64,000 nt of DNA, taken from Gemmatimonadaceae bacterium. Its GTDB lineage: Bacteria; Gemmatimonadota; Gemmatimonadetes; Gemmatimonadales; Gemmatimonadaceae. The translations under genes and the position numbers were made by a program. The stretch lies in assembly GCA_019637445.1 (NCBI GenBank), contig JAHBVS010000003.1, positions 186,001-250,000 on the forward strand. Direction: 5' to 3'. A model generated the notes under the pieces. It was not told the origin of the DNA. It did no database searches and worked only from the letters and a program-made list of their open reading frames with translations. Shown here one piece after another: positions 15,184 to 58,364 of this stretch. The stretch's first letter is position 1; the number at the start of each line of letters is the position of its first letter.

Positions 15184-15208
15184 TCCGTCCGACAACTGAT
15201 CGCGAACG

Positions 15209-15343
15209 CGGGACACGGAAGCCGGTGCAATGCCGGCGCGGCCCCGCCACTGTAACGGGCATCAACGTCCACTCGAGCACAGCCACTGGATCCTGCGGGA
15301 TCCGGGAAGGTGAGTGAACGGCCCGAAGCCAGGAGACGACCCA
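15209..15343 (+). ncRNA. Cobalamin (B12) riboswitch aptamer
   Basis: The conserved blocks of the cobalamin aptamer are visible in order: GGAAGCCGGTGCAATGCCGG (15217-15236), GCGGCCCCGCCACTGTAA (15237-15254), the variable arm, GGGAAGGTGAG (15304-15314) and the B12 box GAAGCCAGGAGAC (15325-15337). It precedes btuFCD and btuB, genes for B12 uptake, as expected. Binding of the cofactor would lower expression, probably through the RBS hairpin at 15431-15462. Confidence 0.95.
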
Positions 15344-15430
15344 CGTTCGCGCCACAACAGCACCCTCGGGGGAGGGGCCGTGGCGTCGAGTGGGTCTGCC
15401 TGATCGTGGTCGGACCGCTTCACGTGCATG

Positions 15431-50963: not shown

Positions 50964-52502
50964 TCAGAGGTTCGCGGTGCTGCCGGCGTCCGGCACACCC
51001 ACGAGGCGGTAGTCGATGTTGCGTTCCTGCGCAGTCGTGCGGAAATGGCGGATCACGTCAAGCACGTCCGGGTCCAGGCGGCGCGTGTGGCGCGCGTCGA
51101 GCTCAAGGCGCGAACCGGCCGGCACGCGGTCCAGCTCCTGCTGCAGCGCGGACTTGTGCAGGAAGTTCACGTTGCCGTGCAGTTGGAGGCGACGCAGCAC
51201 GGCACCCTTCGGGCTGACCTCGGTGAACGGCGGGCTGGCCAGCTGGTCGCGCAGGATGAACACGATGCCCACCGCGAGGCCGATCAGCACGCCACGGAGC
51301 AGGTCCGTGAACAGGATGGCCAGCACCGTCACGAAGAACGGCACCGCGTACGCGAAGCCCTTGCGCACGACGGACCGGAACAGCTCTGGGCTCGCGAGCT
51401 TGTAACCCACGTGCAGGAGCACCGCCGCCAGCGCACTCAGCGGAATGAGGTTCAAGATGCCCGCAAAGGCGATGGCCGAGAGCAGCAGCAGGACGCCGTG
51501 CAGAATCGCCGACCAGCGCGTGCGTGCGCCGGCGGACACGTTCGTGGCCGAGCGCACGATGACGCCCGTCACCGGCAGGCCACCGATCAGGCCCGAGGCA
51601 AGGTTGCCGGCGCCCTGGGCTAGCAGCTCACGATCGGTCGACGCCTCACGCTTGAGCGGGTCCATCTCATCCGTCGCCTGCAGGGAAAGCAGGCTCTCAA
51701 GCGACGCCACGATGGCCAGCACGAGACCGACCTGCCACACCTGCGGCATCGCAAAACCACTCCACGCCGGCAGCGTGAACTGTCCGAGGAAATCACCGAA
51801 CGATGCCGGCACCGGCAGGCTCACGAGGTGGCTGTCACTGATGACGAGGCCAGGGGCGAACGCCGCGAACGCGGCGTTCATCAAGACGCCGAGAGCCACG
51901 ACCACGAGCGGAGCGGGCAGCGCCTTGAGCGGCTTGAGGAATCCCTTGCCCCAAAGGAACAGCAGCGGCAGTGACACCAGCGCGACGATGGCCGCTCCCC
52001 ACTGCAGCTGTTGCACCGCGTGCGCGATGGCCGAGAAGGTCGTCTCGCCGGTCGCCTGTCGGAACGCATCGTCGCCCATCGCATCGACGTCATAGCCGAT
52101 GGCGTGGGGAATCTGCTTGAGGATCAGGATCAATCCGATGGCGGCGAGCATGCCCTTGATGACGGCGGTCGGGAAGTAGTAACCGATGACGCCGGCGCGC
52201 AGTACGCCGAGCAGCATTTGCAGCGCGCCGGCGACAACGACCGCGGCGAGGAAGAGACGGAAGTCGCCGAGATCCGAAATCGCCGCCAGTACGATCACCG
52301 TCAGGCCGGCCGCAGGGCCGCTGACCATCAACTCGGAGTCCGAGAGGAAGCCGACGACGATGCCACCGACGATTCCCGAGATGATGCCGGAGAACAAGGG
52401 TGCGCCCGAAGCGAGCGCTATCCCGAGGCAAAGTGGGATCGCCACGAGGAAGACGACGACCGACGCGAGGCCGTCCTGCTTCCAGGAGAAGGGAGCTTTC
52501 AT
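50964..52502 (-). CDS. SulP-family anion transporter (bicarbonate or sulfate)
   Basis: A 512-residue membrane protein with about 11-12 helices, starting FSWKQDGLASVVVFLVAIPLCLGIALASGAP, the SulP signature, and ending with a partial STAS-like cytoplasmic domain (about 415-505: FTEVSPKGAVLRRLQLHGNVNF, then SRLELDARHTRRLDPDVLDVI). SulP proteins carry sulfate or bicarbonate; pairing with carbonic anhydrase points to bicarbonate (BicA-like). Start ATG at 52502. Upstream 68 bases hold no clear promoter. Confidence 0.88.
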   Translation of the reverse strand: MKAPFSWKQDGLASVVVFLVAIPLCLGIALASGAPLFSGIISGIVGGIVVGFLSDSELMVSGPAAGLTVIVLAAISDLGDFRLFLAAVVVAGALQMLLGVLRAGVIGYYFPTAVIKGMLAAIGLILILKQIPHAIGYDVDAMGDDAFRQATGETTFSAIAHAVQQLQWGAAIVALVSLPLLFLWGKGFLKPLKALPAPLVVVALGVLMNAAFAAFAPGLVISDSHLVSLPVPASFGDFLGQFTLPAWSGFAMPQVWQVGLVLAIVASLESLLSLQATDEMDPLKREASTDRELLAQGAGNLASGLIGGLPVTGVIVRSATNVSAGARTRWSAILHGVLLLLSAIAFAGILNLIPLSALAAVLLHVGYKLASPELFRSVVRKGFAYAVPFFVTVLAILFTDLLRGVLIGLAVGIVFILRDQLASPPFTEVSPKGAVLRRLQLHGNVNFLHKSALQQELDRVPAGSRLELDARHTRRLDPDVLDVIRHFRTTAQERNIDYRLVGVPDAGSTANL

Positions 52503-52570
52503 GACCGGAACATCACCACGCGACGCGCGGTTTGGAAGCGCGAAATTCGCGTCCAGCGCCTGCGCCGCTA

Positions 52571-53383
52571 TTAAATAGGTAGTGAGAGCTGCGCGACCGT
52601 TCTTTCGCGGTCGTTTGCCGTCGCCAACGAGCTCGGCGCACGACCGGTGGCCGCCATCACGGGCGTGTGCACCTGCGCACGCCGGAGGATCGAACGCACG
52701 GTCTGCGTCGCGAGTTCCGGCGTGTTGTTCGTCTCCGACAGGTGCAGCAGCGCGATCGCGCGCAGCTGCGGATGCGCGAGCTCGGCAAGCAGCGCAGCGG
52801 TCCGATGGTTGTCCAAGTGTCCTCGCCCCCCGCGGATCCGCGCCTTCAAGGAGGCGGCGTACGGACCAGTGCGCAGCATCTCGGCGTCGTGGTTCGCCTC
52901 GATGCAGAGCACGTCGCAGCGCGCGAACAGTGCGGGCAGCGCCGCCGGCACCGCGCCGAGATCGTGCGCGATGCCCACGCGATGACCGCTGCGCTCGTGC
53001 GTGATGGCGTAGGCCAACGGCTCGGCCGCATCGTGGGGGATCGCCCCGGCCTCGATCGCGAACCCGTCCGCATCGATGCGCTCACCGGCCGCAAGGGGTC
53101 GTCGCCACCGCGCCGTGACGTCGGGCAGCGCGGCCAGGGTTCCCGCGCTCGCGTACACTGGCCAGCGCCACTTGTGTTGCGCGCGCTCGGCGCCGCTGGC
53201 GTGGTCCACGTGCTCGTGGGTCAGCACCAAGCCAATGATCTGTGTGGGTTCGATCCCGATCAGCGCCAGACGAGACGCCAGAGCCCGCGGCCCGAAGCCA
53301 CAGTCGACGAGCAGCGCCTGTCCGTCGCGCTCCAGCACCAGTGCGTTGCCGCGACTCCCGCTGCCCAGCGACCAGACGTTCAC
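52571..53383 (-). CDS. Metallo-beta-lactamase-fold hydrolase (YycJ/WalJ-like)
   Basis: A 270-residue hydrolase that starts MNVWSLGSGSRGNALVLE and carries the zinc motif THEHVDHASG, the WalJ-type pattern SLGSGSRGNAL. Related proteins act as phosphodiesterases or exonucleases; WalJ in Bacillus affects cell-wall signalling. It is last in the minus-strand operon and overlaps the GlmU-like gene upstream by four bases. Confidence 0.85.
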   Translation of the reverse strand: MNVWSLGSGSRGNALVLERDGQALLVDCGFGPRALASRLALIGIEPTQIIGLVLTHEHVDHASGAERAQHKWRWPVYASAGTLAALPDVTARWRRPLAAGERIDADGFAIEAGAIPHDAAEPLAYAITHERSGHRVGIAHDLGAVPAALPALFARCDVLCIEANHDAEMLRTGPYAASLKARIRGGRGHLDNHRTAALLAELAHPQLRAIALLHLSETNNTPELATQTVRSILRRAQVHTPVMAATGRAPSSLATANDRERTVAQLSLPI

Positions 53384-54576
53384 GCGTCGCGCAACGCGAA
53401 GATGCGGGTCCAGTGCGGCGTGGCCTGCTCCCCCAGCGCCACCTCGCGACGTGTCATCACGCGCGCCGCGGTGATGAGGAACTGGTCGAGCTTGAACGTC
53501 TCCCAGGGCTCGCCGTCGCCCCAGGCAAATGGCGGCACGACTTTCGGCGGCATCCGCGTGCCGAACACGTTCGCCGCCGCGCCGAGTACCGTGCCCGTCG
53601 AGAGCCGCGTACCGATGCCGGTCTTGGCGTGGTCGCCGATGAGGCTGCCCAGGAACTGCAGGCCCGTGCGCCGCTGTCCACCCGGCGCAAACATCGTCAC
53701 CTCGCCATACGAGTTCTTGAGATTGCTCGTGATGCTACCAGCGCCAAGGTTGGCCCAACGCCCAATCACCGAGTGCCCGACGAATCCGTCGTGCCCCTTG
53801 TTGGCGTGGCCGATCATGATGGTCACGCTCATCTCGCCCGCGACCTTCACCTGCGGTCCGATGCTGCAGCCGGAGATGCGCCCACCGAGCACCGTGCTGT
53901 GTGCGCCGATTACACAGGGACCAACGAGCCGCGTGAATGACTGGATGTGAGCGTGCTCGTGCACGATCACGGGGCCCGCGCTGCAATCGGCGACCACAAA
54001 GGGTTCGATGCGCGCGCTCGCCGCCACGTGCGCGCCGGCGTTGCCCAGTACCGTCAGCCCTCGCGCGTCGGGCGCCGAGGGGAGCAGGGCACGCGCATCC
54101 GCCAGCAACATTGCAGGCAACTGACCCACGAGATCCCACGCGGCGTCGAGCCACCAGCCTTCCATGTCGGCGCCCGCGGCTGCCGCGGACTGCGGCAACG
54201 AATCAAGCGAGAGCGACCCATCCGCCAACCGCGACGCGTCGAGGGGCTCGGAAAGTCGAAGCGCTGCGACGCGTCCCGCGCAGCGCAAGACCTGCACGCC
54301 ATCCGCCGGCGCCACCGCCGTGAGCGCCACGGCGCATCGCGCGTTCACAAGCCAACGTCCTGCGGGGATTGCACCGCTGGCCGAAGCAGGTGCGTCGAAC
54401 TCCTCGAACGTTTGCAGGTGCGGACTGCTCACAAATCCTGCCGCGGCGCCGAGCACTCGTGCCCATCGTTCGCGAATCAGCATCGCCCCCGCTCGCAGTT
54501 CGCCGACCGGACGGGTCAGGGCGAAGGGCGCGAAGGCCCGAGCCGAAGCATCGTCGTACAGGACGAACCCGCTCAC
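53380..54576 (-). CDS. GlmU-like protein (NTP-transferase family 4 plus left-handed helix)
   Basis: A 398-residue protein. The N-terminus FVLYDDASARAFAPFALTRPVGELRAGAMLIRERW matches the unusual GlmU-N-1 family (not the classical GXGTRM loop). Residues about 195-360 form left-handed beta-helix hexapeptide repeats (SIGPQVKVAGE, VIGRWANLGAGS, SLIGDHAKTGIGT). Such proteins in Bacteroidetes are annotated as sugar nucleotidyltransferases, with substrate unknown. Overlaps the genes either side by four bases. Confidence 0.78.
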   Translation of the reverse strand: MSGFVLYDDASARAFAPFALTRPVGELRAGAMLIRERWARVLGAAAGFVSSPHLQTFEEFDAPASASGAIPAGRWLVNARCAVALTAVAPADGVQVLRCAGRVAALRLSEPLDASRLADGSLSLDSLPQSAAAAGADMEGWWLDAAWDLVGQLPAMLLADARALLPSAPDARGLTVLGNAGAHVAASARIEPFVVADCSAGPVIVHEHAHIQSFTRLVGPCVIGAHSTVLGGRISGCSIGPQVKVAGEMSVTIMIGHANKGHDGFVGHSVIGRWANLGAGSITSNLKNSYGEVTMFAPGGQRRTGLQFLGSLIGDHAKTGIGTRLSTGTVLGAAANVFGTRMPPKVVPPFAWGDGEPWETFKLDQFLITAARVMTRREVALGEQATPHWTRIFALRDA

Positions 54577-55616
54577 GCGTCCCTCACCACGTCAGGGGGC
54601 AGGGCATCCAGCATCCGCTTGAGCGCATCCGAGTGCTCCACGGTGGTGACCATCGTCAGGCCCGGTTTGGAGACCACGACCAGGTCCTTCACACCGTAGA
54701 GCACCACCCGTCCGGCATCCGCGTGCACGACGTTGGCGCCGGAGTCCACCGTGTACACGTCGCCGTGCGTGGCATTGCCCGCGGCGTCGAGGACGCGGAC
54801 CCGCCGCAAGGCGGCCCAGGTCCCGACATCGTCCCAGCCGAAGTCACCGGCGACCACGGCCACGCGTGCGCTGCGCTCCAGCACGCCGACATCCACGCTG
54901 ATGGGATTCTCCACCGCGCCAAAGAAGGCCTCGGCGCCTTGTGACGCGACAGCCATCGCCGCCTGCAACTCCGGCGTGTGCGCCGCGATCTCGGCGAGGA
55001 ACTCCGAGGCCTTCCACGCGAAGATGCCAGAGTTCCAGAGACAGCCCGCGGCGACCAACTGCTCGGCGCGCGCGCGGTCGGGCTTCTCGAGGAAGCGCTC
55101 CACGCGCCGCGCAGCGGCGTCGAGGGTCGCTCCCGGTTGGATGTAGCCGAGTCCGGGATTCGCATCCACGGGCACGATGCCCACCGTCGCGAGCGCTGCG
55201 TGCTCGCGCGCCGCCCGGACCGCCTCGGCCAGCACCTCACGAAAGCGCGCGTTGTCGCCGATGGCCGCGTCTGCGTGCACGGAGAGCATCGCCGCATCGT
55301 CGCCTCCGCGGCGGCGCACCTCGTGCGCCGCCCAGGCCAGCGCCGCCGCCGTGCCCGCCGGCCGGGGCTCGGCCAGCACTTGGTCGGCCCCCAACCACGG
55401 CAGCGTGGCGCGCACCGCGCCCACGAGCGCAGCACTCGTCAGGATCAGGATTCGCTCGCGGTCAACCAGCGGCGACAGTCGTCCAACCGTGTCCTCGAGC
55501 ATCGAGTGCTCGCTGACGAGCGGCAGGAGCTGCTTCGGGCGAGCGGGCGTGCTCAGTGGCCAGAACCGCGACCCCACACCGCCCGCCAGCACGACTCCGA
55601 AAAGAGGAGCGGCCAT
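54573..55616 (-). CDS. manC: Mannose-1-phosphate guanylyltransferase
   Basis: A 347-residue GDP-mannose pyrophosphorylase of the ManC/AlgA type without the C-terminal isomerase half. It has the nucleotide loop LAGGVGSRFWPLSTPARPKQLLPL, FLEKPD, and CLWNSGIFAWK, which mark sugar-1-phosphate GDP transfer. It makes GDP-mannose for glycans. The gene starts at 55616, overlapping the regulator gene stop by one base. Confidence 0.9.
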   Translation of the reverse strand: MAAPLFGVVLAGGVGSRFWPLSTPARPKQLLPLVSEHSMLEDTVGRLSPLVDRERILILTSAALVGAVRATLPWLGADQVLAEPRPAGTAAALAWAAHEVRRRGGDDAAMLSVHADAAIGDNARFREVLAEAVRAAREHAALATVGIVPVDANPGLGYIQPGATLDAAARRVERFLEKPDRARAEQLVAAGCLWNSGIFAWKASEFLAEIAAHTPELQAAMAVASQGAEAFFGAVENPISVDVGVLERSARVAVVAGDFGWDDVGTWAALRRVRVLDAAGNATHGDVYTVDSGANVVHADAGRVVLYGVKDLVVVSKPGLTMVTTVEHSDALKRMLDALPPDVVRDA

Positions 55617-56017
55617 CAGGCGGGTGCGCCCTGCACGAGCTCCGTGACCCGCGCGAGTAGGCGCTTCGGGCTGAATGGCTTGGTCATGAACTCGTCAGCA
55701 CCGCGACGGCGCGCCTCCTGCTCCTGGTGGTCCTGCCCCGCGGCGGTGAGGATGAGGCAGGGAATGTGCCGCCACCGGGCGTCGGCGCGGAGGCGCTCCA
55801 GCACCTCGAAGCCGCTGACGCGCGGCATCATGAGGTCGAGGACCACCAGTCCCACCGGCGGCTCCGCCTCCAGCGCATCGAGCGCTTCGGCACCATCGTA
55901 GACCAGGTCCACGGCGAAGGGGCCCTGCTCGAGCTTGGTCTTGATGATGCGCCCGATATGCGGCTCGTCGTCGGCGACGAGGATTCGGGTGCGCGGGCTG
56001 GGCGCGGTGGCCGACAC
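55616..56017 (-). CDS. CheY-like response regulator, receiver domain only
   Basis: A 133-residue receiver domain. Acidic pair D16-D17 in RILVADDEPH, phosphoacceptor Asp61 in LVVLDLMMPRVSGFEV, and Lys113 in FMTKPFSP. No output domain, so it likely signals by protein contact. Start GTG at 56017; an earlier start would extend it into a roadblock-overlapping frame with no family match. It lies between a roadblock protein and ManC. Confidence 0.9.
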   Translation of the reverse strand: MSATAPSPRTRILVADDEPHIGRIIKTKLEQGPFAVDLVYDGAEALDALEAEPPVGLVVLDLMMPRVSGFEVLERLRADARWRHIPCLILTAAGQDHQEQEARRRGADEFMTKPFSPKRLLARVTELVQGAPA

Positions 56018-56028
56018 AGGACCTGCGA

Positions 56029-56382
56029 TCAGACGAGCGTGGCCAGCCCCGCGCGATGCCGGCGGAGATCGTAGAGCAGCGCGCCGAGATTCGCCGTCGG
56101 CGTGAGTTGGACAAGCAACACCACTTCCGCCGAGAGCGTAGAGAGCACCACCGTCGACTCCACGTGCTCCAGCACCGCCGTGCGGAGCGCACCGATCTGT
56201 GCGGCACCGCCCAGGTCGTCGGCGAACTGGAGAATGCTCGGGACGTGCGCCGCGATCTGCTCGCTGTCCACGCCGGCGTTGGCCTCGCTGTCGATCAAAA
56301 GGCCGTCGCGGCCAAGCACGGCGGCAGCCTGCACGCCATCGAACTGGCGCAGCGTCGACACGAGGTCGCGAATCGTGGGCAC
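56029..56382 (-). CDS. Roadblock/LC7-domain protein (MglB-like)
   Basis: A 117-residue roadblock/LC7 protein, typical of regulators of small Ras-like GTPases such as MglA. It shows the pattern LVSTLRQFDGVQAAAVLGRDGLLIDSE and strands ending VVLSTLSAEVVLLVQLTPTANLGALLYDLRRHR. GTG 56382 has a good GAGGAG Shine-Dalgarno. No MglA-like GTPase is in the window. First gene of the minus-strand operon. Confidence 0.85.
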   Translation of the reverse strand: MPTIRDLVSTLRQFDGVQAAAVLGRDGLLIDSEANAGVDSEQIAAHVPSILQFADDLGGAAQIGALRTAVLEHVESTVVLSTLSAEVVLLVQLTPTANLGALLYDLRRHRAGLATLV

Positions 56383-56408
56383 CGGGGCTCCTCGGAGGGG
56401 TTCGCCGA

Positions 56409-56436
56409 AGTGTACCGCTGGGGGTATGCAAGTCAA
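56409..56436 (-). promoter_or_regulatory. Promoter of the roadblock-CheY-manC operon
   Basis: On the minus strand TTGACT (56431-56436) and TACACT (56409-56414) with a 16-base spacer. The start site near 56402 gives a 20-base leader with GAGGAG. Confidence 0.75.
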
Positions 56437-56447
56437 GCGCGCATCGC

Positions 56448-56477
56448 TTGTTGCGCCATCCTCCGCTCCGTTAGCTT
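56448..56477 (+). promoter_or_regulatory. Candidate promoter of the lipoprotein gene, divergent
   Basis: TTGTTG (56448-56453) and TAGCTT (56472-56477) with an 18-base spacer. The start codon GTG 56484 lies six bases downstream, so the transcript would be leaderless. Same -10 as at groESL and tRNA-Ser. Confidence 0.5.
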
Positions 56478-56483
56478 CCAGTC

Positions 56484-57086
56484 GTGATGCCTACAGTCTT
56501 TTCCAGCCGTCGGTCGCGCCGTGTCGGCGCGGCCCTTGCCGCCGCTCTCGCCGTGGTCCTAGCCGCCGGAGCCTGCGGCGATGACCCCTTCGCCCCGAAG
56601 GCGGAGAATGCCGTCGCGAACACCGAGTTCAGCGTCTGGGCGTTGACGGGGTCGCCGACGAACTTCCCCACCGTCATTTTCGTCCCGCAGCGCTTTGCCG
56701 CGCGCCCGGATCCGTCGGCGTCCTTCGACATCGGCTTCGACATTGACGCCATGGGCCGGGTGCAGATCCTGCCCGTGTCCCGCGTGATGACACCGCTCGC
56801 GACGCAGCGCAGCGTTGGAATCCAGGTCCCCGGCACGGCCTACGCCGACATCACGGCGGCCCCGCGCACCGGATGGGTATTCGACTCGATCGTCACGGTG
56901 GACGTCGGGCAGGCGTTCATCGTGCGAGTGCAGACGCTCTACTGCTCACTTGAGCTTCGGCAGGAGGTCTACGCCAAGTATGTGGTGGACTCCATCTTCC
57001 CCGCCGAGCGACGGATCAAGATCAAAGGGCGCGTGAACCCCAATTGTGGGTTCCGCTCGTTTGGCGACGGCGTTCCCACGTTCTGA
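56484..57086 (+). CDS. Lipoprotein of unknown function
   Basis: A 200-residue protein (199 if ATG 56487 is used) with a lipoprotein signal peptide: basic start MMPTVFSSRRSRRVG, hydrophobic core and AGAC, then GDDPFAP. The mature part is mainly beta strands with two later Cys residues (C in TLYCSLEL, C in NPNCGF) that may form a disulfide. I do not recognise the family. It is followed three bases later by serS, likely by operon reading-through. Confidence 0.7.
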   Translation: MMPTVFSSRRSRRVGAALAAALAVVLAAGACGDDPFAPKAENAVANTEFSVWALTGSPTNFPTVIFVPQRFAARPDPSASFDIGFDIDAMGRVQILPVSRVMTPLATQRSVGIQVPGTAYADITAAPRTGWVFDSIVTVDVGQAFIVRVQTLYCSLELRQEVYAKYVVDSIFPAERRIKIKGRVNPNCGFRSFGDGVPTF

Positions 57087-57089
57087 GCC

Positions 57090-58364
57090 GTGCTCAACCC
57101 CCGCTCGTTCCGTGAGGACCTTGGCGTCCTGCGCGACGCCATGGCGCGTCGCGGCAAGCTGGACCTGTACGGCCCACAGATCGACGAGGGCGAGTCCCTC
57201 GACAAGTCGCGCCGCGCCGCCATCCAGCGCGTAGAGGAGAAGAAGGCCGAGCGAAACCGCGTCTCGCAGGAGGTCGGCAAGCGCAAGAAGGCCGGCGAGG
57301 ACGCCAGCGAGTTGCAGGCCGCGGCGCGTACCCTGGGCGACGAGATCGCCGCGCTTGAGGCAGAGCTCGCCACCACGCAGGCCAGGCTCGACGAGCTACT
57401 GCTCGGCATCCCGAACCTGCCGTTGCCGGACGTGCCGGCGGGCGACGAGACAGCCAACCGCGTCCTGCGTAGCTGGGGCGAGCCACGCGCCGCCGAGAGC
57501 GTGAAGCCGCATTGGGACGTCGGCGAGACGCTGGGGCTCTTCGACCTGCCGCGCGGCGCCAAGATCTCGGGCTCCGGCTTCATCGTCTATCGCGGCAAGG
57601 GCGCGCGTTTGGTGCGCACGCTGATGAACCTGATGCTTGACCTGCACACCGGGACCTTTGGCTACGACGAGACCTGGGTGCCTGTGGTGGTGAACCGCGC
57701 CACGATGACGGGCACGGGGCAGTTGCCGAAGTTCGAGGACGATATGTACGCGCTCAAGGATGAGGACATGTTCCTCATCCCCACCGCCGAGGTCCCGGTC
57801 ACGAACCTCTTCCGCGACGAGATCCTCTCGGCGGAGGAGCTGCCGAAGGCGCTCTGCGCCTACTCGCCCTGCTTCCGCCGCGAGGCTGGCTCCGCCGGGA
57901 AGGACACGCGCGGCCTGCTGCGCGTGCACGAGTTCGACAAGGTCGAACTGGTGCGCTACTGCGCGCCGGAGGATGGCGAGGCCCAGTTCGAACTGCTGCT
58001 CTCGCACGCCGAGGCGGTGCTGCAGAAGCTCGGGCTGCCGTACCGCGTGCTGCTGCTGGCCGCCGGCGACACCGGCTTCTCCAGTGCCAAGACCTACGAT
58101 CTCGAGGTCTTCGCCCCGGGAGTCGGAAAGTGGCTGGAGGTCTCGTCCTGCTCGATCTTCACGGACTTCCAGGCGCGGCGGGCGAACATTCGCTATCGCC
58201 CGGCGGCGGGTGAGAAGCCGCGCTTCGTGTACACGCTGAACGCCTCCGGCCTGGCCTTCCCGCGCATCATCGCCGCGCTGCTGGAGCACTACCAGCAGGC
58301 CGACGGCTCCGTGCTGCTGCCCGAGCCCCTGCACGCCGGACTCGGCACGGACCGCCTCGGGTGA
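57090..58364 (+). CDS. serS: Seryl-tRNA synthetase
   Basis: A 424-residue class II synthetase. The N-terminal coiled-coil arm (about residues 30-110) binds the long variable arm of tRNA-Ser. Motif 2 is FRREAGSAGKDTRGLLRVHEFDKVE and motif 3 is LNASGLAFPR. Start GTG 57090. It overlaps pcrA by four bases. Confidence 0.97.
   Translation: MLNPRSFREDLGVLRDAMARRGKLDLYGPQIDEGESLDKSRRAAIQRVEEKKAERNRVSQEVGKRKKAGEDASELQAAARTLGDEIAALEAELATTQARLDELLLGIPNLPLPDVPAGDETANRVLRSWGEPRAAESVKPHWDVGETLGLFDLPRGAKISGSGFIVYRGKGARLVRTLMNLMLDLHTGTFGYDETWVPVVVNRATMTGTGQLPKFEDDMYALKDEDMFLIPTAEVPVTNLFRDEILSAEELPKALCAYSPCFRREAGSAGKDTRGLLRVHEFDKVELVRYCAPEDGEAQFELLLSHAEAVLQKLGLPYRVLLLAAGDTGFSSAKTYDLEVFAPGVGKWLEVSSCSIFTDFQARRANIRYRPAAGEKPRFVYTLNASGLAFPRIIAALLEHYQQADGSVLLPEPLHAGLGTDRLG

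Follow-up and report, generated by a model that had tools for sequence, protein, structure and literature searches.

An orphan Roadblock protein encoded with nucleotide-sugar genes in Gemmatimonadota is a probable member of an MglA/MglB module encoded elsewhere

We analysed a 64-kb window (the whole stretch of DNA studied here, C3:186001-250000, on contig JAHBVS010000003.1) of the 3.35 Mb genome of Gemmatimonadaceae bacterium GCA_019637445.1. Our subject is a five-gene operon on its minus strand, in which a Roadblock/LC7 protein (Robl) precedes a receiver-only response regulator (REC), two nucleotide-sugar enzymes and a metallo-beta-lactamase-fold (MBL) hydrolase. Profile matches and reading frames recovered all five genes in the order given by a first-pass annotation of the sequence, as listed below with lengths in amino acids (aa) and nucleotides (nt).

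56409-56436, minus strand: promoter-like site TTGACT-16-TACACT, 26 nt upstream of the Robl start
56029-56382, minus strand: Robl, Roadblock/LC7 protein, 117 aa, GTG start (Robl_LC7 28.4 bits, cut-off 23)
55616-56017, minus strand: REC, receiver-only response regulator, 133 aa (Response_reg 86.2 bits)
54573-55616, minus strand: ManC-type mannose-1-phosphate guanylyltransferase, isomerase domain absent, 347 aa (TIGR01479 229.7 bits)
53380-54576, minus strand: alternative GlmU (alt_bact_glmU), 398 aa (TIGR03991 294.2 bits, cut-off 225.3)
52571-53383, minus strand: MBL-fold hydrolase, final gene of the operon, 270 aa (Lactamase_B_2 58.8 bits, Lactamase_B 56.9 bits)

The five genes likely share one transcript. 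Three junctions overlap, REC/ManC by 1 nt and ManC/GlmU and GlmU/MBL by 4 nt each, but a gap of 11 nt lies between Robl and REC, so that the genes do not all overlap as first described; the interval originally assigned, 53380-56436, also omits the hydrolase, which that annotation called WalJ-like and which is placed here at the level of the MBL superfamily. An earlier start proposed for the first gene, TTG at 56436, sits inside the -35 box and GTG at 56382 is preceded by a GAGGAG ribosome site, which makes the GTG the most likely start. The single good promoter of the first-pass annotation held up: one promoter-like site occurs within 52300-57200, against 0.1 expected from shuffled sequence, and sites matching at least 8 of 12 positions lie no more than 75 nt from Robl at 96 of the 120 related loci versus 5 of 120 shuffled ones. 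Where Robl has been lost in G013 and G014, TTGACT-16-TATGCT now stands directly upstream of REC, in agreement with a single transcription unit.

We assessed conservation of the order in 80 named loci, the best 80 of 103 stretches encoding a Robl relative in an all-species scan (close patterns only, distant relatives beyond the phylum not being sought), and in 40 hand-picked divergent loci; the sets of 33, 22 and 38 genomes used for other comparisons were also picked by hand. Because the named loci were chosen by Robl likeness and come partly from the genomes of our numbered set, named loci and numbered genomes do not form independent samples. The full five-gene order is present at 57 named loci, with 2 lacking REC, 4 lacking GlmU, 1 lacking the hydrolase and 16 cut by a contig end. 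Among the divergent loci, 12 have the full order, 21 miss only REC, 4 only the hydrolase and 2 both, and one retains Robl-ManC alone. An order unique to this strain is thereby ruled out. It recurs across one class of the phylum, to which the Robl profile matches (177 of 298 phylum genomes, 70 of 119 genera) are confined. Two divergent neighbours outside the operon belong to the same conserved block and are present at 118 of 120 loci:

56484-57086, plus strand: lipoprotein-like gene, lipobox-like start judged by eye
57090-58364, plus strand: serS, adjoining the lipoprotein-like gene

Since the entire block is syntenic, lipoprotein gene and serS included, synteny alone is weak functional evidence. 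We inspected 20 regions, in 19 of which Robl is missing or broken; REC-ManC-GlmU is kept in 14 of these and ManC-GlmU without REC in the other 5 (including G062, where ManC and GlmU were read only in part), and the hydrolase was not seen downstream of GlmU in G022, G135 and G259. As the enzymes persist at loci without Robl or REC, both signalling genes are removable parts added to a stable enzyme core. Three records (L076, L079 and L120), labelled as Planctomycetota, Kofleriaceae and Candidatus Kuenenia, bear the Gemmatimonadota block and are probably binning or naming errors. At one further locus (L145, G200), on a 3.04 Mb contig and otherwise syntenic, ManC gives a partial match and GlmU is unseen after Robl.

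The alternative GlmU family TIGR03991 is above cut-off in 27 of the 33 hand-picked genomes. Canonical GlmU (TIGR01173) is above cut-off in none of 22 hand-picked Gemmatimonadota genomes (the closest, G304, reaching 305 of 367 bits), whereas 9 of the 14 control genomes exceed the cut-off; the alternative GlmU is therefore the likely UDP-N-acetylglucosamine (UDP-GlcNAc) enzyme of the genome. UDP-GlcNAc supplies peptidoglycan and lipid A besides exopolysaccharide. Four genomes (G309-G312; loci L082, L083, L102 and L125) have the operon without the alternative GlmU and neither GlmU family above cut-off genome-wide. Against the bifunctional GMP_PMI profile (TIGR01479), the 229.7 bits of ManC cover the transferase part and fall below the cut-off of 372.95; with the isomerase half absent, the enzyme is not bifunctional. 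It is also not the sole candidate guanylyltransferase of the genome, a second ManC-like gene lying at C1:477622-478665 (174.5 bits).

Robl is 117 aa long in 111 of 120 loci. An AlphaFold2 model (predicted local distance difference test 96.0, predicted template modelling score 0.88) has roadblock-family proteins as its best structural matches, in keeping with Roadblock/LC7 (PF03259), with Z 16.6 for Myxococcus xanthus MglB, 11.5 for MglC and 16.7-18.6 for archaeal (Asgard) roadblocks. The match stops at residue 129 of the longer MglB chain 6izw_B, and Robl is thus modelled as an MglB fold without the MglA-binding C-terminal tail. Among solved structures, a Thorarchaeota roadblock (7f8m, 3.8e-16) and the conservon protein CvnB5 (3leq, 9.2e-16) come closest to Robl in sequence, ahead of both MglC (E 1.9e-5) and MglB (E 3.1e-5). 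In type it resembles MglC, being a short Roadblock protein in which the MglB extensions are absent, and it departs from an mglA-coupled MglB gene in that neither the operon nor the window encodes an MglA-type GTPase. Asp26-Gly27-Leu28 is invariant or nearly so, and an archaeal roadblock and CvnB5 have a DGL turn as well; MglC carries an FDI motif in its beta1-beta2 turn, according to the accessible part of PMC7949163.

The first-pass annotation had noted that the 64-kb window holds no matching GTPase, and had suggested looking for one elsewhere. Both points were borne out: the window contains no MglA-like GTPase, and the genome has two MglA-type genes (E <= 1e-5), at C2:355387 and C3:121391, an apparent third match being the second piece of one gene. 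The C2 MglA adjoins a true MglB, whose match to the M. xanthus protein (E 1.2e-35) includes the C-terminal tail, in a context that we take, from the sequences of the flanking genes, to be recR-mglB-mglA-pgsA. The C3 MglA lies about 64 kb before the window and is preceded by three Roadblock-type stretches. This second system (G000:C3:118733-122325; L002, L004 and L035), outside the window, presumably begins with a DUF4388-like gene and is followed, after MglA, by a DnaA-like gene. Its short Roadblock protein is the own-genome paralogue of the operon Robl, at 31% identity.

Robl and the C2-type MglB (threshold E <= 1e-16) share their distribution across the 298 phylum genomes. Each occurs in 177; 170 genomes have both, 7 Robl only, 7 MglB only and 114 neither. 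Restricting Robl to matches below 1e-15 leaves 169, with Robl and MglB together in 163 genomes, Robl alone in 6, MglB alone in 14 and neither in 115; the matches dropped (>1e-15) were four in family f4, the broken G011, and G228, G229 and G258. We took the weak f4 matches (E 1e-8 to 1e-10; G043, G107 and G202 read) as paralogues, the locus itself having none. In a 115-genome tree built from ManC and SerS, 86 genomes have both genes and 15 have neither, 5+5 are discordant and 4 have no MglB call; three genomes without a Robl match (G141, G166 and G270) lie outside the tree, the Robl site being off the contig or not found. Robl changes 7 times on this tree, REC 7 times and MglB 8 times. Independent pairs differing in Robl had MglB changing in the same direction in 4.6 of 6 and in the opposite direction in 0.0, and pairs differing in MglB had Robl following in 4.3 of 8 and opposing in 0.0. 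Pagel's test, which we ran with a script of our own (simple maximum likelihood, referred to a chi-square distribution) rather than with a published program, linked Robl to MglB (likelihood ratio 26.2, p 2.9e-5), with p 0.86 for REC-MglB and 0.13 for Robl-carbonic anhydrase as controls. Within the order, Robl-MglB gave p 7e-5 (REC controls 0.41 and 0.93), and recoding G011 and G220 or removing either main loss clade left p at 0.001-0.002.

Joint absences occur in the G001/G009/G013/G014 clade, G011, G190, the g7 clade and families f5/f7, with MglA kept and MglB absent in g7. The losses in G190 and G011 are apparently recent. Upstream of REC in G190 (L220), the promoter-like site and first Robl codons remain and no MglB match was found; in G011 (L234), MglB and the Robl upstream of REC are both broken or mis-assembled.

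Evolutionary rates gave a second line of evidence. We took 80 MglB-MglA loci and used the 75 genomes with all six genes (G087, G106, G033, G035 and G037 each lacked one), and discarded the 25% of branches whose control length was shortest. In a first pass, Spearman correlations were 0.33 for Robl-MglB, 0.25 for Robl-MglA and 0.04 for Robl-ManC. Partial correlations controlled for SerS and ManC were 0.43 for Robl-MglB and 0.39 for Robl-MglA (permutation p 0.0002 each), compared with 0.51 for the known pair MglB-MglA; the lipoprotein gave 0.14 with Robl and -0.05 with MglB. In 40 genomes, GlmU-MglB was -0.15, MBL-MglB -0.04 and UvrD-MglB 0.12, and in 53 genomes REC-MglB was 0.09, with Robl-MglB at 0.29 (p 0.01). 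Within family f1 (42 genomes), Robl-MglB and Robl-MglA reached 0.47 and 0.48. The Robl rate thus tracks MglB and MglA more than its operon neighbours, with two families (f2/f3) deviating.

Several observations weigh against tying Robl to MglA/MglB. Sign tests on the independent pairs reach only median p 0.06 for pairs differing in Robl and 0.125 for those differing in MglB. The Pagel fits disagree on loss order: on the full tree Robl is lost quickly where MglB is absent, while the order-only fits have MglB lost quickly in the absence of Robl; some rates lie at their bounds and the changes are few (7 and 8). Small genome size (2.5 Mb or less, marked by hand) predicts loss of Robl (p 0.001) and of MglB (p 0.005), so that the co-loss is partly confounded by genome reduction. 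In family f4 MglB is kept but none of the 4 loci read contains Robl, G037 likewise has MglB without Robl, and Robl occurs without a C2-type MglB in G058 and G146 (both g27), in G231 and G257 (both g35), and also in G220 and G197, according to searches of fragmented assemblies. Among the rates, f2/f3 (28 genomes) give a Robl-ManC correlation of 0.50, above Robl-MglB at 0.36 (p 0.03), and values for Robl-MglA and MglB-MglA of 0.18 each, not significant. Controls other than SerS+ManC put Robl-ManC at 0.19-0.26 (p 0.02-0.08), and SerS+UvrD controls put Robl-lipoprotein at 0.30 (p 0.02, 40 genomes). Specificity is imperfect elsewhere too, with 0.26 for Robl-MBL, 0.41 for MBL-MglA and 0.21-0.37 for MglB-ManC.

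Taken together, fold, co-loss and rates indicate that the operon Robl probably belongs to the MglA/MglB module. We lean, by a little, towards a more specific reading, in which Robl is an orphan, tail-less MglB-family adaptor of the polarity module encoded elsewhere and is co-transcribed with GDP-mannose and UDP-GlcNAc genes. Without an MglA-binding tail, an adaptor role is likelier for Robl than that of a GTPase-activating protein. Its dimer would form and dock on MglB and/or MglA; being produced alongside ManC and GlmU, and alongside a phosphorylatable receiver protein in genomes that have one, would place it to couple polarity state to GDP-mannose and UDP-GlcNAc supply. We infer such binding and dimerization, any effect on the enzymes and any role of REC phosphorylation, and likewise the control of surface polysaccharide synthesis that the first-pass annotation had ascribed to the operon's signalling proteins. 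For Robl, the link to MglA/MglB-type signalling proposed in that annotation is strengthened beyond gene order, Robl sharing presence, absence and rate with a true MglB-MglA pair; for REC it is not supported, REC showing no tie to MglB. We consider it unlikely that Robl is a fourth component of MglA polarity systems, letting the GTPase position or gate the synthesis of GDP-mannose and UDP-GlcNAc and thereby have envelope or exopolysaccharide precursors made where MglA directs, with optional tuning by the receiver.

Shared dispensability might instead account for both signals: relaxed selection in streamlined lineages would produce the co-loss and the rates, with the function of Robl unrelated and the operon a case of ordinary housekeeping synteny. 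The association of both losses with small genomes fits this explanation, as do several Robl-less genomes with only 1-2 PilT matches, compared with 3-5 in many relatives. The g7 genomes (2.6-3.7 Mb), however, are not small and yet lack both genes, and REC, which changes as often as Robl on the tree, shows neither signal. Carbonic anhydrase likewise shows no significant association with Robl, and PilT is present in every genome examined within the order, with unmatched genomes (20 of the 22 listed, sorted by kinship) beginning at class level. We judge shared dispensability improbable as the whole explanation. A narrower variant, Robl loss through wholesale loss of type IV pili, is unsupported given PilT in all order genomes examined, copy number being lower in several.

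An enzyme-side role, with Robl adjusting nucleotide-sugar synthesis through direct contact with ManC or GlmU and without the GTPase, would suit its position: at every one of the 118 loci with a visible next operon gene, that gene is REC or ManC and Robl stands directly ahead of it, no more than 150 nt from the start of its profile match in 114 of them. The Robl-ManC covariation of f2/f3 and, more weakly, of the wider sets points the same way, and is the only hint of an effect of the module on the enzymes beyond shared transcription. ManC and GlmU remain where Robl is lost, however; the Robl-GlmU rate correlation is 0.04 and Robl-ManC in f1 is 0.10, and the equally syntenic lipoprotein gene and serS make proximity weak evidence. 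We regard direct enzyme regulation as quite unlikely.

REC looks phosphorylation-competent, the phospho-acceptor Asp, the Thr and the Lys being conserved in 90, 89 and 90 of 90 aligned domains, and behaves as an independent add-on to the locus. The first-pass annotation had joined it to Robl as signalling proteins, but the two are gained and lost independently: Robl occurs without REC in 27 of the 115 tree genomes and REC without Robl in 15, all four combinations exist and Pagel's test gives p 0.79, which excludes an obligate pair. A pairing like that of MglC and RomR, with phosphorylated REC recruiting Robl, would draw on the adjacency of the genes where both are present, the conserved phosphorylation residues and the binding of M. 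xanthus MglC by the response regulator RomR (PMC12719032, accessible part), but is very unlikely here given this independence, a Robl-REC rate correlation of 0.18 (p 0.11, 53 genomes) and a RomR contact made, according to the same part of that source, through a C-terminal helix, REC being receiver-only.

Two further features complete the picture of the window. The lipoprotein-like gene beside serS has no Pfam match and one marginal NCBIfam match (E 0.05), and keeps its place next to serS in Robl-less genomes; its product is probably an uncharacterised envelope protein found class-wide. Far from the operon lies one RNA element:

15192-15359, plus strand: cobalamin riboswitch (78.6 bits)

Many bacterial Roadblock proteins are orphans whose genes lie apart from any GTPase gene, and for this class-wide orphan family losses and rates now name a likely partner, while largely separating Robl from the enzymes of its own operon. 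If binding is confirmed, Gemmatimonadota would become a system for testing Ras-like polarity together with cell-envelope precursor supply; the link between polarity and surface building is a hint that can now be tested. In literature searches that left subscription journals and preprints largely uncovered, we found no precedent for a Roadblock protein with a mannose-1-phosphate guanylyltransferase and, judged by title, none on the subject for GDP-mannose, and for MglA and motility in Gemmatimonadota only the 2014 census of Wuichet and Sogaard-Andersen surfaced, whose accessible part lists Group 1 MglA in Gemmatimonadetes (PMC4316618).

Known systems offer partial parallels. The MglA/MglB/MglC/RomR module of M. 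xanthus resembles ours in its Roadblock fold, in association with MglB beside MglA and in having a response regulator nearby. MglC is located between MglB dimers (PMC7949163, accessible part) and binds RomR, so Roadblock adaptors exist as precedent. The operon Robl differs in being encoded with nucleotide-sugar genes, in its 117 aa and missing MglB tail, and in being about equally distant from MglC and MglB, with CvnB and archaeal roadblocks as closer relatives. Streptomyces conservons (CvnA-D) combine a histidine kinase, a GTPase, CvnB and a further conserved protein in an operon (PMC4316618, accessible part); CvnB5 is among the nearest solved sequence relatives of Robl, but a histidine kinase and a GTPase are absent from the five genes, which with their flanks belong to other families, and we rejected conservon identity. 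In Snodgrassella, a different phylum, another short orphan Roadblock gene, a 121-aa mglB, has alleles linked to type IV pilus-dependent motility (PMC11112851, accessible part). Closest in kind are the 328 orphan MglB homologues counted in the accessible part of the 2014 census (PMC4316618), which likewise are MglB-family genes uncoupled from mglA; unlike them, the gene described here has a distant partner proposed from co-loss and rates, and a locus fixed across much of a class.

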